64,000 nucleotides of DNA from positions 62,001 to 126,000 of the forward strand of contig NZ_QKWN01000014.1 in assembly GCF_007279655.1 (NCBI RefSeq), in the 5' to 3' direction. The notes under the pieces are model-generated. The model saw only the letters and a list, made by a program, of their open reading frames with translations, did not search any database and was not told where the DNA came from. Positions 42,854 to 49,394 of the stretch are shown here, in pieces (position 1 is the stretch's first letter; each line of letters opens with the position of its first letter). The position numbers and the translations under genes were made by a program. Source of the DNA: Robertkochia solimangrovi (GTDB lineage: Bacteria > Bacteroidota > Bacteroidia > Flavobacteriales > Flavobacteriaceae).

Positions 42854-44035
42854 TTAGAGATTAAAATAATTGATATAGGTATCGAGGTCTTTGTCGCCAC
42901 GACCTGAAAGACTGATAACAACGATGTCGTCTTTTTTGAAATTTTTATGGTTGAATACCGCGAATGCATGGCTGGACTCAATAGCCGGGATGATCCCTTC
43001 TAATTTTGCGAGCTCCAGTCCGGCATGCATGGCTTCATCGTCAGTGGCGGAGTAGAATTCACCTCTTCCGGAAGTGTAGAGATGGGCATGCATCGGACCA
43101 ACTCCGGGATAGTCAAGTCCGGCAGAGATGGAGTATGGTTCGGTGATCTGACCGTCTTCCGATTGCATCAATAAAGTTTTACAACCATGAATTATTCCTT
43201 CCTTTCCAAGAATAGAAGTTGCTGCACTCTCACCGGAATGAATTCCTTTTCCGGCTGCTTCCACGGCGATTATGCCTACTTCCGGTTGATCCAGAAAATG
43301 ATAATACGTACCTGCAGCATTACTGCCACCGCCGATACAGGCGATCACATAATCAGGATTTTCCCTTCCTTCTTTCTCTTTTAATTGCCATTTGATCTCT
43401 TCTGATATGATGCTTTGAAATCGCGTAACCATATCGGGATACGGATGCGGGCCAATGGCAGACCCGATGATATAATGTGTGTCGACCGGGTTGTTGATCC
43501 AGTCACGAATAGCTTCATTTGTCGCGTCCTTGAGTGTGCGGCTTCCGGAAAGCGCAGGTCTGACCGTAGCTCCGAGCATTTTCATCCTGGCGACATTTGG
43601 AGCCTGGCGAGCGATATCGATTTCTCCCATATACACGACACATTCCATTCCCATCAGTGCACATACGGTAGCAGTTGCAACCCCGTGTTGTCCGGCACCG
43701 GTCTCTGCAATGATCCGTTTCTTACCCAATTTTCGGGCCATCAGAATTTGTCCGATGGTATTATTGATCTTATGGGCACCGGTATGATTCAGGTCTTCAC
43801 GTTTCAGATAGATCCTGGCGCCATGCTTTTCGGAAAGTCTTGAGGCAAAATACAAAGGCGAGGGTCTGCCCACATAATCGCGGAGCAGCTTATCGAAAGT
43901 AACTTTGAAATCAGGCTCGTTCATCACTTCAAGATAACGTTGACGAAGTTCTTCCACATTCGGGTAGAGCATTTCTGGAATATATGCCCCGCCAAAATTC
44001 CCGTAATATCCGTTGCTGTCTACATTATAGTTCAT
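42854..44035 (-). CDS. trpB: Tryptophan synthase beta chain
   Basis: TrpB condenses indole with L-serine using PLP. The 393-aa protein has the PLP lysine at Lys89 in [14 protein letters not shown], the [14 protein letters not shown] loop near 110 and the phosphate-binding GGGSNAAG near 235. It is the standard TrpB1 type that pairs with TrpA. Gaps are 15 bp to trpF upstream and 7 bp to trpA downstream. Confidence 0.98.
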
Positions 44036-44050
44036 TTGGTTGTATTTCTG

Positions 44051-44698
44051 TTAAGGTAACAATGATTTAAAAAGTTTAAGTTTTTCCGGAATCTTCATTC
44101 CGGGTTCAGATTCGAATCTGCTGTTCACATCGATCGCATGACAATAGGCCGCTGCCGGTGAACTCAAAAATTCAAGAATTTGTCCGATCTCCTGCTGCCC
44201 GATACCTCCACTCAGAAAAAAGGGAGTCTCTGACGGATATTCATCCAGCGCTGACCAGTTGAAGGTAAAACCATTGCCGCCGGGGAGAAGTCCTTTCGTA
44301 TCAAACAGAAAGAAATCGGAATATTGCTCATATCGACTGATCGTTTTAGCCTCGATCCTGTCGATGACGGAGAACACCTTAATCAATTCCGGTTTGCATA
44401 CCCCGTTGCCAAATTCCTCCAGAAGTAAAGCATCCAGTTTCGCCAGATATTCAGGACTTTCATTTCCGTGTAATTGAATGGCATTAAAGCGGTAATACTT
44501 CACTGATTTGAGAAGCGAATCGATATCTGCATTGACGAATACACCCACCTTTCGTATTGAATCCGGAAGTTCCGGAATGATTCCTTCGAAGAACCTCGGA
44601 GACTTTTCGTACATGATAAAGCCGAGATAGTCGGGATTCAAATTGCCTACAGCCTTTATATTGGCCGGATGTTTCATTCCGCAGATCTTTAATTTCAT
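44051..44698 (-). CDS. trpF: Phosphoribosylanthranilate isomerase
   Basis: TrpF isomerises N-(5'-phosphoribosyl)anthranilate to the ribulose form (Amadori rearrangement). The 215-aa TIM barrel has the active-site Cys in KICGMKHPANI at residues 3-13, GVFVNAD, IQLHGNES and the C-terminal SGGIGQQEI and IDVNSRFES phosphate-binding loops. It is a separate gene, not fused to trpC. Its ATG overlaps the trpC stop by 4 bp. Confidence 0.96.
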   Translation of the reverse strand: MKLKICGMKHPANIKAVGNLNPDYLGFIMYEKSPRFFEGIIPELPDSIRKVGVFVNADIDSLLKSVKYYRFNAIQLHGNESPEYLAKLDALLLEEFGNGVCKPELIKVFSVIDRIEAKTISRYEQYSDFFLFDTKGLLPGGNGFTFNWSALDEYPSETPFFLSGGIGQQEIGQILEFLSSPAAAYCHAIDVNSRFESEPGMKIPEKLKLFKSLLP

Positions 44699-45489
44699 GA
44701 GGTGGTTTTTTGAAGCTGACTAATAAATTCCCCGGCATTTTTTCCCGGATCCTCGGTTTTCATAAAATTCTCACCGATCAGGAATCCACGGTAACCGTAG
44801 TCTCTTAAACCTGCAATGGATGCAGTGTCACTGATGCCACTTTCGGAAACCTTCACGAAAGAATCGGGAATATGTGACGCTAAGGACCGGCTGGTATCCA
44901 AAGATACCTCGAAAGTTTTGAGATTTCGGTTATTTACTCCGATCATGGCCACTTCCGGTATCAGTGATCGCTGTAATTCTTCCAGGTCATGAACCTCCAG
45001 CAATACTTCCAATTGCAGTTCACTGGCGAGTTTAGCCAGGTCTTGCATTTCCCGGGTGGTGAGTACCGCTGCGATGAGTAAAATCACATCGGCTCCATAG
45101 GCCTTAGCCTCAAATAGCTGGTAAGGATCTATTATGAATTCCTTTCGTAATAAAGGAATTTCCACGGCGGCTCTGGCGATCAGCAGGTCGTCGATCGCCC
45201 CACCGAAATATTTGACATCGGTTAAGACAGACATTCCGCACACCCCGGCTCGCTGATACCCTGTCGCCACATCCTGTACATTCAATTGCTGGTTGATCAC
45301 TGCCTTTGAAGGGGATCGGCGTTTGTGTTCAGCGATGATCCCGGACTCGCTGTTTCGCAAGCGATCGGAAAGAGCATTGATCTTTCGATCGAAAAGAGCC
45401 GAGGCCTCCAGTTGCTTTATGGGTATCAGTGAACTTCTTAAAGCAACTTCCTTCCGTTTATCAGCTATAATTCTATCCAGTATGTTCAT
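44695..45489 (-). CDS. trpC: Indole-3-glycerol phosphate synthase
   Basis: TrpC closes the indole ring by decarboxylating cyclisation. The 264-aa TIM barrel has AEHKRRSPSKA (catalytic Lys) near 45, KEFIIDPYQLFEA near 110, LLEVHDLEEL near 160, GVNNRNLKTFEV near 180 and SESGI near 210. The frame opens 10 codons further upstream, but MNILDRIIADKRKEV is the usual start. The end overlaps trpF by 4 bp, which indicates translational coupling. Confidence 0.97.
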   Translation of the reverse strand: MNILDRIIADKRKEVALRSSLIPIKQLEASALFDRKINALSDRLRNSESGIIAEHKRRSPSKAVINQQLNVQDVATGYQRAGVCGMSVLTDVKYFGGAIDDLLIARAAVEIPLLRKEFIIDPYQLFEAKAYGADVILLIAAVLTTREMQDLAKLASELQLEVLLEVHDLEELQRSLIPEVAMIGVNNRNLKTFEVSLDTSRSLASHIPDSFVKVSESGISDTASIAGLRDYGYRGFLIGENFMKTEDPGKNAGEFISQLQKTTS

Positions 45490-45511
45490 TTGAGTATATC
45501 GATTATCAGTC

Positions 45512-46504
45512 TTAAGCACTGAGTTGTTGTATTTTTCTGAGTACTTCCAGCGCCTTACCGCTCAGAAGCACTTCTTTGGCTTCTGCAAAGCTATCATGTA
45601 CCGGGGTGTTCTTAACCGTTGCAATGGCCATGGCAGCATTGGCGCAAACCACATTATTTTGCGCAGTGGTTCCTTTTCCTTCTAAAACATTTATAAAGAT
45701 GGCTGCTGATGATTCAATGCTTCCACCTCCGATGATCTCACTTTGCTTTACTTCGGTAACTCCGAAATCTGCTGCTTCCAACATTTGTTCATGGTTGTTG
45801 CGAATGACCTTGGTCTTTCCGGTGAGCGAGATCTCATCATAGCCGTCAAGGGCATGAAGGATGGTATAGTTCTTTTCTGTGTTTTGATAGAGGTAACCAT
45901 AAAGTCGGGCGAGTTCCAGGTTGAATACGCCTACCATTTGATTCTTAGGGAATGCCGGATTAACCATCGGTCCCAGCATGTTGAAAAAAGTCTTCACCGC
46001 CAGTTCTCTGCGAATAGGAGCCACATGCTTCATGGCCGGATGGAACAGGGGAGCATGTAATATACAGATTCCGGCCTGGTCGATGCAGCGGTTAAGGAAA
46101 TCGACATCCTGGGAGAATCGGATTCCGAGATGTTCCATGACATTACTGGAGCCACATTTTGAAGAAACGCCGTAATTCCCATGTTTGGTAACCTTAACTC
46201 CTGCTGCTGCCGTGATGAAAGAGGCGAGTGTTGAAATATTAAAGGTGTCTTTACCGTCTCCTCCGGTCCCGCATAGATCGATGGTCTCATGGCCGTTGAG
46301 GTCTACAGAAAGGCAGAGTTCCTGCAGGGCATCCCTGAAGCCTTCCAGTTCCTCGATGGTGATGTTACGCATCATATAGACGGTAAGAAAAGCTGCGATC
46401 TGACTGGTGTTTACTTCCCCGTTTGAGATCATTACCAAAGCATTTCTGGCTTCTTCCTTACTGATGGTCTCGTGATTTATTAATCGGTTTAAAATTGTTT
46501 TCAT
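45512..46504 (-). CDS. trpD: Anthranilate phosphoribosyltransferase
   Basis: TrpD transfers the phosphoribosyl group of PRPP to anthranilate. The 330-aa protein has an N-terminal helical domain and the PRPP-binding glycine loop DLCGTGGDGKDTFNIST near 80, followed by KHGNYGVSSKCGSSNVME near 107. It is the stand-alone form; the glutamine amidotransferase TrpG is a separate gene 48 bp upstream. Confidence 0.97.
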   Translation of the reverse strand: MKTILNRLINHETISKEEARNALVMISNGEVNTSQIAAFLTVYMMRNITIEELEGFRDALQELCLSVDLNGHETIDLCGTGGDGKDTFNISTLASFITAAAGVKVTKHGNYGVSSKCGSSNVMEHLGIRFSQDVDFLNRCIDQAGICILHAPLFHPAMKHVAPIRRELAVKTFFNMLGPMVNPAFPKNQMVGVFNLELARLYGYLYQNTEKNYTILHALDGYDEISLTGKTKVIRNNHEQMLEAADFGVTEVKQSEIIGGGSIESSAAIFINVLEGKGTTAQNNVVCANAAMAIATVKNTPVHDSFAEAKEVLLSGKALEVLRKIQQLSA

Positions 46505-46552: not shown

Positions 46553-47116
46553 TTACATGTCGAGCCAGTTCTTTAAAATGGTTTTACCTTCAGGGGTGAG
46601 TACCGATTCCGGGTGATATTGTACACCCCGGACATCATATTCACGGTGTTTTAACGACATGATCTGGCCGTTTTCGTCAATGGCGGTTATGATCAGATCG
46701 TTTGGGACTTTAGGGTCGACCACCCAACTGTGGTAACGACCGACCTCGATCTCTTCAGGAAGGTTATTATAGATAGGGTCGTCAGCAATGATCTTAATAG
46801 CAGTGCTCACCCCGTGATATACCTCTTCGATATTGATAAGTGAACCCCCGAAAACTTCACCGATGGCTTGTTGTCCGAGGCACACTCCAAAGATACTCTT
46901 GGTAGGAGCGAAGCGTTTTATGAGAGGCTTTAAAAGTCCGGCTTCGTCAGGAATTCCGGGACCGGGTGATAGGACGATCTTTTCAAAATCTTCGACGATA
47001 TCAAGATCGATCTGATCATTCCGGTAAACTTCTACCTCGCAATCCAGGTCTTCCAGGTAATGTACCAGATTATAGGTGAAGCTGTCATAGTTATCGATTA
47101 CCAATACTTTTTTCAT
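46553..47116 (-). CDS. trpG: Anthranilate synthase component II (glutamine amidotransferase)
   Basis: TrpG hydrolyses glutamine and delivers ammonia to TrpE. The 187-aa class I amidotransferase has the oxyanion motif SPGPGIPDEAG near 50, the nucleophile Cys79 in GVCLGQQAIG and the HPES His-Glu pair near the C terminus. MKKVLVIDNYDSFTYNL at 47116 is the family start; an ATG four codons upstream is less likely. In many bacteria this subunit also serves as PabA; no pabB is seen here. Confidence 0.95.
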   Translation of the reverse strand: MKKVLVIDNYDSFTYNLVHYLEDLDCEVEVYRNDQIDLDIVEDFEKIVLSPGPGIPDEAGLLKPLIKRFAPTKSIFGVCLGQQAIGEVFGGSLINIEEVYHGVSTAIKIIADDPIYNNLPEEIEVGRYHSWVVDPKVPNDLIITAIDENGQIMSLKHREYDVRGVQYHPESVLTPEGKTILKNWLDM

Positions 47117-47137
47117 ATTTTTCTCCAATTGGAAATT

Positions 47138-48541
47138 TTATTTTATCTCTTCCGCCATATCCATGGCTTTGTTCAGAGCTCCGAGTTTGTTATAGGTTTC
47201 CTGTAATTCATTCTCCGCAACGGATGCGGATACAAGTCCGGCACCTGCCTGATAATAAAGGCGGTAATCCTTGCTCAGGAAGGTCCGTATCATAATAGCA
47301 TGGTTGAAGTTTCCGTTGAAATCCATAAAACCGATGGCCCCGCCATAATAATCCCGCTGACTGTGTTCATAACGATCGATCAGTTGCATAGCCATGTGCT
47401 TCGGAGCTCCACTCAGCGTTCCGGCAGGAAAGGTGTCGGCAACGACCCGCATGGTCGAGATCTCAGGTTTTTTTCTGGCAGTGACCTTGGAAACCAGGTG
47501 TATCACATGGGAGAAATACTGAACTTCACGGTAGGTCTCCACAGCAACACTGTTGCCGTTTCGGCTGAGATCGTTTCTTGCCAGATCCACCAGCATTACA
47601 TGTTCGCTGTTTTCTTTTAGATCTTCGGAAAGTTCAATGGCCAGTTGGGCGTCTTTCTCATCATTACCCGTGCGTTTAAAGGTGCCGGCGATCGGATGGA
47701 TCTCAGCCTTATCGTTCTTTACCACCAATTGTGCTTCCGGGGAACTTCCAAAGATCTTGAAGTTTCCGTAATCGAAATAGAAGAGGTAGGGAGAAGGATT
47801 GATGGATCGCAGGGCTCGATAAACGTTGAATTCATCGCCTTTGAATTGTTGGGAAAATCTTCGGCTCAGCACCAATTGGAACACGTCACCGCGTTTACAG
47901 TGATGGCGGGCTTTTTCAACCAGTGCTCTGTAATCTTCATCCTTGAGAAAAGAATGAGGTTCACCAACTTTTTGGAAGTTGTAAGAAGCGAAGTTTCGCG
48001 CTGCGAGTAATTGTTGAATATCCGCAATATTATGTGAATCATCAGAGGAATGACAAAAGATATAAGCTTCATTCTTAAAGTGATTGATCGCGATGATGTT
48101 GCGATATACCGCATAATAGATATCCGGAATCTGTAAAGAATCCTCTTTTTTCCGAATCTCGATATCTTCGAAATAGCGAACGGCATCATAAGCGATATAG
48201 CCGAAGAGTCCGTTGGTGATGAACTTAAATCCGTTATTTTCTGTTTTAAAGCTTTTAGCAAAGGCTTCGATCATGGCCGGAACATCACTTTCTGAGGTTA
48301 GCGCATCTGAAAGATGGGTACCGTCAGGGTAGTGGCGTACGATCGTTTCATTTTCGACTTTTACCGAGGCGATCGGGTCGAAACAGATGTACGAAAAACT
48401 ATTGTCGTTTGCATGATAGTCACTGGATTCAAGCAAAATGCTGTTCGGAAATTTATCCCGTATCTTTAGATAGACGCTCACCGGGGTAATGGTGTCGGCG
48501 AGTATCTGCTTATAATGTGTCTTTAATTCAAAGGTATGCAT
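47138..48541 (-). CDS. trpE: Anthranilate synthase component I
   Basis: TrpE makes anthranilate from chorismate with ammonia from TrpG. The 467-aa protein has an N-terminal regulatory domain with the LLESSDYHANDNSFSYI segment that usually binds feedback-inhibiting tryptophan, and a C-terminal chorismate-binding domain with FQLVLSRRF, IAGTFKRTGN, LVDLARNDLSRNG, the TFPAGTLSGAPKHMAM region and YYGGAIGFMDFNG. The frame opens 14 codons upstream, across the attenuator, so MHTFELKTHYKQ at 48541 is preferred. It is the first structural gene of trpEGDCFBA, 41 bp after an attenuator hairpin. Confidence 0.97.
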   Translation of the reverse strand: MHTFELKTHYKQILADTITPVSVYLKIRDKFPNSILLESSDYHANDNSFSYICFDPIASVKVENETIVRHYPDGTHLSDALTSESDVPAMIEAFAKSFKTENNGFKFITNGLFGYIAYDAVRYFEDIEIRKKEDSLQIPDIYYAVYRNIIAINHFKNEAYIFCHSSDDSHNIADIQQLLAARNFASYNFQKVGEPHSFLKDEDYRALVEKARHHCKRGDVFQLVLSRRFSQQFKGDEFNVYRALRSINPSPYLFYFDYGNFKIFGSSPEAQLVVKNDKAEIHPIAGTFKRTGNDEKDAQLAIELSEDLKENSEHVMLVDLARNDLSRNGNSVAVETYREVQYFSHVIHLVSKVTARKKPEISTMRVVADTFPAGTLSGAPKHMAMQLIDRYEHSQRDYYGGAIGFMDFNGNFNHAIMIRTFLSKDYRLYYQAGAGLVSASVAENELQETYNKLGALNKAMDMAEEIK

Positions 48542-48581
48542 GGTTTTCTGTGATTTCTTAATTTCAAAAACTATTGGAAAC

Positions 48582-48612
48582 AAAAAAGGCCTGTCGTGAT
48601 CGACAGGCCTTT
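48582..48612 (-). terminator. Attenuator terminator in the trp operon leader
   Basis: On the minus strand AAAGGCCTGTCG, loop ATCA and CGACAGGCCTTT form a perfect 12-bp stem continued by further T residues. It lies between the leader-peptide stop (48644) and the trpE ATG (48541), inside the operon's own leader, so it must be conditional. Weak competing pairing is possible between GCAG and GCC just after the leader stop and GGC and CUGU of the 5' arm. Confidence 0.85.
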
Positions 48613-48643
48613 TATATTTTGATTACATCATAGGGGCGTCTGC

Positions 48644-48700
48644 TCACGAATTCGAACGTAAGTTAGACCACCACCAGATAATGTTAATATTGTTTCTCAT
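48644..48700 (-). CDS. trpL: trp operon leader peptide, 18 aa with three consecutive Trp
   Basis: The short frame reads MRNNINIIWWWSNLRSNS and stops 32 nt before the attenuator hairpin begins. Three adjacent Trp codons directly upstream of a complete trp operon are the hallmark of a leader peptide at which ribosomes stall when charged tRNA-Trp is short. A perfect -7 box (TATATTTG) ends 8 nt before its ATG, so the transcript is nearly leaderless. No Shine-Dalgarno is present. It was found by eye and is too short for usual gene prediction. Confidence 0.85.
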   Translation of the reverse strand: MRNNINIIWWWSNLRSNS

Positions 48701-48708
48701 GTTGAGGT

Positions 48709-48716
48709 CAAATATA
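48709..48716 (-). promoter_or_regulatory. -7 box of the trp operon
   Basis: TATATTTG on the minus strand is a perfect TAnnTTTG. The start site would fall near 48702, only a few nt before the leader-peptide ATG at 48700. A TTG lies 24 nt upstream, slightly far for -33. Confidence 0.6.
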
Positions 48717-48748
48717 GAAACGATTTTTAAATTTTCATAGCAAGGATT

Positions 48749-48783
48749 AAAAAAAAAATCCTGTGTCGGTTAAAACACAGGAT
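48749..48783 (-). terminator. Intrinsic terminator after yceI
   Basis: On the minus strand ATCCTGTGT, an 8-nt loop and ACACAGGAT form a 9-bp stem followed by about ten T residues. It insulates the marked trp promoter from the upstream nitroreductase-yceI transcript. Confidence 0.87.
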
Positions 48784-48818
48784 CTTATCATAACAATTAA
48801 ACTTAAACTTAGGGGGAA

Positions 48819-49394
48819 TTAGAATTCCAGATCTACTACCAGATCAAATTCATCATAGATGGTTTTATCTCCTAAATTGTCAAAGAAGCTTCCGGATCCA
48901 TATCGGATATCATATTTAGCTCTGTCGATCTTAACGCTTGCAGTTGCTTTGCTTCCATAGATTGAAAGGTCAAAGTTTACAGGGTGTGTTTTACCTTTGA
49001 TGGTAAGGTCACCGGTAACTTTATACGCATTCTTTCCGGTAGCCGAAACTTTCGTAAATACCAAAGTAGCGTTAGGGTATTTTTCAACTCCGAAGAAATC
49101 ATCTGATTTCAGGTGTCCTTCCAGTTTTCCTTTATATTCACCGGTAAGGTCAGTGGATACCAGTGAGGTCATATCAACAGTGAATTCACCTCCGGCTAAT
49201 TTATCGCCGTCAAAGGTCAGAATTCCTTTTTTCAGAGCTACAGTTCCTTCGTGCGAACCGGTTACTTTATATCCTTTCCAGGATACAGAGCTGTTTTCAA
49301 CTTTTACGGGTTTTTCAACCAGTGGCAGGGTATAGGCGAAACTTCCGAATATTACAGTAAGGGCCAATACGGATTTTAAAATGTTCTTAGTCAT
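48819..49394 (-). CDS. YceI-family exported protein
   Basis: The 191-aa protein has a signal peptide (about 1-25) and a YceI lipocalin-like barrel that binds isoprenoid or other lipid-like molecules. Typical features are VSWKGYKVTGSHEGTVALK near 40, DMTSLVSTDLTGEYKGKLEG near 75 and LTIKGKTHPVNFDLS near 125. It is 10 bp downstream of the nitroreductase gene on the same strand; the two form a unit probably controlled by the nearby MarR regulator. Confidence 0.92.
   Translation of the reverse strand: MTKNILKSVLALTVIFGSFAYTLPLVEKPVKVENSSVSWKGYKVTGSHEGTVALKKGILTFDGDKLAGGEFTVDMTSLVSTDLTGEYKGKLEGHLKSDDFFGVEKYPNATLVFTKVSATGKNAYKVTGDLTIKGKTHPVNFDLSIYGSKATASVKIDRAKYDIRYGSGSFFDNLGDKTIYDEFDLVVDLEF

Follow-up and report, generated by a model that had tools for sequence, protein, structure and literature searches.

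In the trpL leader of E. coli, Trp codons and a stop codon are combined with mutually exclusive pairings and a terminator before trpE, whose 5' arm is the partner of the antiterminator. Within the Bacteroidetes, an RNA element 5' of trp genes was catalogued as Bacteroid-trp (RF01692; Weinberg et al. 2010, PMC2864571), and this element is mentioned 5' of the trp operon of F. psychrophilum (PMC6414381). A transcript-mapping study of F. psychrophilum, a member of the same bacterial family as the organism considered here, found strong indications that amino-acid operons are attenuated through leader peptides, the same mechanism as proposed below; its passages on the subject name neither trp nor an antiterminator nor alternative folds (PMC9723704). 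The papers and passages searched (including PMC2864571, PMC6414381, PMC9723704, PMC7366714 and PMC2965389) yielded no mechanism for a Bacteroidota trp leader.

We analysed the trp leader within a 64,000-nt stretch of DNA from Robertkochia solimangrovi (the window). The element is a member of the catalogued Bacteroidetes family and of a kind already known. It matches RF01692 at 48602..48723 of the minus strand with 49.6 bits against a gathering cut-off of 49, a margin of 0.6 bits, and the alignment spans the full model (1-131) with many non-standard pairs marked. Like the described members, it precedes tryptophan-synthesis genes, carries a Trp leader ORF and aligns over the same stem region. 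Given the publication of the family in 2010 and the mentions for F. psychrophilum, the claim that a Bacteroidota version of this attenuator was unreported falls. The RF01692 model ends inside the 5' arm of the terminator, so the antiterminator described here lies outside it. Sequence comparison and folding indicate that the trp operon is very probably preceded here by a ribosome-mediated transcription attenuator, a Bacteroid-trp member with the predicted antiterminator UCGUGA:UCACGA. This element of an ordinary kind has good support from sequence; its predicted antiterminator fits better than the one first proposed, and its spread goes beyond the public model.

Every part of the element is read from the minus strand. 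A terminator-like hairpin (48755..48786) closes off the gene upstream (ORF 48819-49394), and we therefore assigned the promoter and leader to the trp unit. A -7 promoter box, TATATTTG (TAnnTTTG; 48709..48716), lies 8 nt 5' of the ATG of an 18-residue leader peptide, MRNNINIIWWWSNLRSNS, which runs from an ATG at 48700 to a TGA at 48646-48644 (ORF 48644..48700). Its three Trp codons (48668..48676) are marked as the probable regulatory codons by sequence, folding and relatives together. They are preceded by the 5' strand of an outer stem (48678..48684), which falls within the RF01692 stem region and pairs with 48631-48625 (3' strand, 48625..48631) in the minimum free energy structure of the ribosome-free RNA. 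An intrinsic terminator hairpin (48584..48613) with a 4-nt AUCA loop follows, and its U-run (48582..48587) overlaps the base of the stem. The hairpin had been described as a perfect 12-bp one; the hairpin itself was recovered, with 13 bp (7 G-C). The first structural gene, trpE (47138..48541, ATG at 48541), is followed by trpG (46553-47128), trpD (45512-46504), trpC (44695-45519), trpF (44051-44698), trpB (42854-44035) and trpA (42085 to about 42855), an order given by NCBIfam models, of which the best ones for TrpE and TrpF score below their own curated cut-offs. Re-reading the DNA thus bore out the arrangement given in the original prediction, from the box through the WWW frame and hairpin to trpEGDCFBA, and supported its comparison with a ribosome-mediated attenuator. 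The predicted lack of a Shine-Dalgarno sequence was also borne out, as no GGAG, GAGG or AGGA occurs 20 to 4 bases 5' of the leader ATG. A scan for sigma-70 promoters returned one site, fewer than the shuffle mean. The fold of the 161-nt leader region is far more stable than those of shuffled sequences (z -7.68), and the composite motif occurs a single time in its own genome.

The hexamer UCGUGA, which overlaps the leader stop codon (48644..48649), is the reverse complement of UCACGA (48594..48599), which takes in the loop of the terminator and the bases that begin its 3' arm. We compared this pair across 117 close leaders, of which 29 and 13 had been picked by RF01692 and 75 by trpE. CGUGA in the leader together with UCACG in the terminator was present in 104 of the 117, with CGUGA lying across the stop codon in 74, before it in 19 and after it in 11. 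In the 19 leaders that have CGUGA 7 bases before the stop, its UGA is out of frame. Since CGUGA is off the stop codon in 30 leaders, it is the RNA and not the codon that is kept. Covariation was assessed in 117 leaders aligned with MAFFT, after removal of two duplicates and manual addition of L016 and L117. Over eight pairs, both sides had changed in 16 cells, whereas 500 shuffles averaged 4.0 and never exceeded 8, and sliding the helix by one to three columns gave 2-10 double-changed cells and 17-58% of cells paired, compared with 85.3% in register. Since the columns show so little variation, this paired fraction is barely above the shuffle mean of 83.3% in the Flavobacteriaceae alignment, and the two end pairs match poorly. 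With the helix nearly invariant in Flavobacteriaceae, the covariation rests on divergent members, such as L111, where GUCGUAAG is complementary to CUUGCGGC, and L017, where GUGAGA is complementary to UCUCAC. The relatives therefore point to UCGUGA:UCACGA as the antiterminator, and the pairing originally put forward is probably wrong.

To follow the alternative folds that the original prediction had suggested computing, we masked the bases under the ribosome and exposed the RNA step by step at its 3' end. In the ribosome-free RNA, a protector strand, CUUACG (48657..48662), hides the antiterminator strand: CUUACG:CGUGAG had a probability of 0.99-1.00, and the terminator reached 0.96-1.00 from 48593 on. 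Placing Trp11 in the A site reduced pairing of the protector to 0.00. When the A site was on Trp10 or Trp11 and the RNA was exposed to 48595-48591, UCGUGA:UCACGA had a probability of 0.94-1.00 and the terminator one of at most 0.06. A ribosome with Trp9 in the A site gave the antiterminator 0.83 at 48595 and 0.99 at 48593, and at 48591 the terminator was ahead (0.62 vs 0.38). With the stop codon occupied by the ribosome, terminator probability was 0.00 at 48595 and 0.69-1.00 from 48593 on. In the model, antiterminator and terminator are thus mutually exclusive according to ribosome position. With five bases of the 3' arm exposed, the switch was robust to footprints of +12 to +18 and to transcription starts from 0 to -7. 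From the usual geometry of the polymerase, RNA is expected to be exposed to about 48594 while the enzyme is on the U-run. Once the RNA was exposed to 48588 and beyond, the finished terminator had a probability of 1.00 at equilibrium in every ribosome state, and hence the switch must be kinetic.

These folds suggest a model that has three states and specifies the bases involved, in a phylum that initiates translation without Shine-Dalgarno pairing. Transcription would begin at the leader AUG or a few bases before it, and a ribosome would start on the short leader without a Shine-Dalgarno sequence. When charged tRNA-Trp is plentiful, the ribosome would reach the UGA and cover UCGUGA, allowing the terminator to form before trpE. 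When charged tRNA-Trp is scarce, the ribosome would halt on the Trp codons and cover the protector CUUACG, which would free UCGUGA to pair with UCACGA once the polymerase has released the loop of the terminator and the bases that begin its 3' arm. This helix would block nucleation of the terminator at the moment of would-be termination, resulting in read-through into trpE. Without a ribosome, CUUACG would tie up UCGUGA and the terminator would again form. The layout resembles that of E. coli trpL in its Trp codons, stop codon, mutually exclusive pairings and terminator before trpE. It differs in that the predicted antiterminator engages the loop of the terminator and the beginning of its 3' arm, and in having no Shine-Dalgarno sequence.

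Of 60 related genomes, counting the own one, 31 had an RF01692 match at E<=0.001, which in 24 exceeded the cut-off. For a sample chosen regardless of the RNA, we took the best 80 named trpE loci among the matches listed. Two or three adjacent Trp residues were found in a leader within 450 bases at 76 of these 80 loci, and at two more (L047 and L087) the Trp leader lies farther upstream behind an inserted ORF, giving 78 of 80; the upstream stretches of the remaining two (L084 and L093) are cut by contig ends. The inserted ORF in L047 and L087 lies between the trp terminator and trpE and looks by eye like a GIY-YIG endonuclease, with the leaders at about 940 and 1008 and trpE at 1501. The alignment of trpE upstream regions, a comparison that the original prediction had called for, showed the Trp codons and the hairpin to be conserved, and the terminator and leader-stop region to be strikingly alike. 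Relatives lacking either the Trp codons or the hairpin had been named as evidence against an attenuator; both are kept, and on the side of sequence the prediction therefore stands. We scored a leader as switching if, at five exposed bases of the 3' arm, the terminator had a probability below 0.5 for a stalled ribosome and of at least 0.5 for one at the stop. By this measure 102 of the 117 close leaders switch, and the probability of the stalled terminator was 0.01 against a mean of 0.67 for shuffled leaders. For the trpE-sampled close loci alone, the switch was present in 67/75 at five exposed bases and 73/75 at six, and 73/75 fell within the bottom 5% of 40 shuffles.

Start sites were surveyed in 166 parsed leaders (L001-L124 and L133-L183), comprising 118 close and 48 class-wide ones. 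A TAnnTTTG box lies within 60 bases of the start in 109 of the 118 close leaders and in none of the other 9; the spacer between box and start is at most 8 nt in 43, 9-14 nt in 9, 15-24 nt in 48 and more than 24 nt in 9. The box is present in 36/48 class-wide leaders, 21 of them with a spacer of at most 8 nt. Across the 166 leaders the spacer is never below 4 nt and is 4 or 5 nt in 37 (28/118 and 9/48), and Shine-Dalgarno-like 4-mers occur 5' of the start in two. Transcription starts lie about 4-5 nt from a -7 box, and leaders with a 4-5 nt spacer would therefore be leaderless or nearly so. At this locus the spacer is 8 nt, which would place the transcription start close to the ATG. The original description of the peptide as almost leaderless is thus plausible here and such starts are frequent in relatives, but it is no constant feature, and in view of the range of spacers in the close leaders we dropped leaderlessness as a defining one. 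In F. psychrophilum, 5.5% of 890 mapped genes were leaderless (PMC9723704).

RF01692 matched at least 15 of 295 genomes of the class at E<=0.001 (own genome included), 11 above the cut-off, in a search whose filters lose some weak matches. A TrpE search gave matches at 1e-30 in 163/197 class genomes, and we took an E-value below 1e-115 as indicating true TrpE (64 places among the matches listed); the weaker matches look PabB-like. Twelve of the 64 lie in genomes with an RF01692 match, one (G114) is at a contig end and 51 were analysed. A short ORF with W-W or W-x-W plus a terminator was found in 48 of the 51 upstream stretches, compared with 5/144 same-strand and 7/192 other-strand control windows from the same loci, which is more than chance would give. 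The three exceptions are L134, L147 (215 bases, contig end) and L174 (one Trp). Eight leaders (L133, L136, L137, L138, L139, L141, L157 and L160) carry spaced Trp residues (W-R-W, W-L-W, W-C-W) instead of WWW. RF01692 thus covers 12/64 strong class-wide trpE, and none of the other 51 reaches its cut-off, in part because genomes with a match had been set aside beforehand. At the trp operons of this class, Trp-leader attenuators extend beyond what the public model captures, and annotation relying on it would miss many of them. Separately, three genomes carry a Bacteroidales small SRP RNA (RF04183) some 1.8 kb 5' of trpE (L150, 1850-1952; L154, 175-276; L159, 1842-1945).

The switch was present in 32 of the 48 class-wide leaders at five exposed bases and absent from 16, and the stalled terminator had a probability of 0.09 against a shuffle mean of 0.64. 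Thirty of the 48 fell within the bottom 5% of 40 shuffles and 18 did not. No leader, close or class-wide, switched in reverse at five bases, and one class-wide leader did so at four. We also scored the best contiguous helix between each class-wide leader and the apex of its terminator. It beat shuffled leaders at p<0.05 in 23/48 and at p<0.01 in 8, with 25 individually non-significant; the combined Fisher p of 4.5e-20 treats related loci as independent and so overstates the signal. Of the 23 significant helices, 18 mainly involve the loop of the terminator and its 5' arm (in L176, for example, GUGAACAGC pairs with GCUGUUCAU), and five (L146, L164, L167, L173 and L178) are on the 3' side as at this locus. 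In 6/48 the leader strand reaches the stop codon, and in 34/48 it lies within 16 bases of it. This score replaced loose RNAduplex energies against the terminator apex, which admitted large internal loops and were noisy (22/48 at p<0.05). Outside the class, 13 of 20 trpE loci examined (of 28 matches) have a Trp leader and terminator under a laxer U-run rule (the control windows above cover the class-wide loci); with six bases exposed, 5 of these 13 switch (L193, L194, L197, L198 and L201). In the other seven (L192, L196, L202, L204, L205, L207 and L208), no Trp leader was found in 700 bases, and some of these genes may not be first in their operon or may be under other control.

The original prediction had paired GCAG/GCC after the stop with GGC/CUGU in the hairpin. 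On this view the antiterminator would take up the terminator's 5' arm, as in the E. coli layout. Such a pairing is possible by eye, and most of the significant class-wide helices do target the 5' arm and loop. At this locus, however, GCAG:CUGU did not exceed a probability of 0.13 in any of the ribosome states and exposures examined (a score for these four pairs), against 0.94-1.00 for UCGUGA:UCACGA in the same kind of fold, and GCAGAC is kept in L027 and absent from L023, L025 and L026 of the same genus. We consider this version of the attenuator unlikely. It is less likely still that the hairpin is a constitutive terminator, or that of the upstream gene, with an incidental WWW ORF. The finished hairpin is indeed stable in all ribosome states, but the upstream gene has a terminator-like hairpin of its own, and a leader ORF together with a terminator recurs upstream of trpE far more often than in the control windows.

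Tryptophan might also be sensed other than by decoding speed, through the nascent peptide, a T-box or an RNA-binding protein. In TnaC-like sensing, free tryptophan acts on the nascent peptide, and the leader Trp run could serve such a sensor. The leader residues outside the Trp run nevertheless vary widely among relatives, and this variation, together with the spaced Trp residues found class-wide, suits codon sensing. No T-box or other sensor family was matched at gathering level in the window, and no T-box at E<=1 in 48300-49000. We regard sensing of this kind as improbable. No proteobacterial Trp leader family in Rfam was matched in the window or in 48300-49000, and the Thr_leader family scored 26.2 bits, far under its cut-off of 55.

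Returning to attenuation through UCGUGA:UCACGA, we find a broader joint reading reasonably likely, if less so than the assignment of this locus. Trp-codon attenuation would be old and very widespread at Bacteroidota trp operons, far beyond RF01692, with the leader ribosome often starting at the 5' end or within a few bases of it. The Flavobacteriaceae antiterminator would grip the loop of the terminator and the bases that begin its 3' arm, blocking nucleation instead of capturing the 5' arm, and the sequence and side of the antiterminator would have changed repeatedly while complementarity was kept.

An element of a similar kind was seen elsewhere in the same genome (L187; C14 near 403401), where a leader, MNTNLSHHHHHIHLLRSGEVI, and a terminator precede an ORF that looks by eye like hisG. 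A hisG 5' element is listed for F. psychrophilum (PMC9723704). The L187 leader ORF has 21 codons, starts at locus position 1483 and contains HHHHHIH. In the folding analysis its terminator had a probability of 0.00 with the ribosome stalled and, with the ribosome at the stop, of 0.22 with five bases exposed and 0.92 with six, suggesting a putative His attenuator of the same build.
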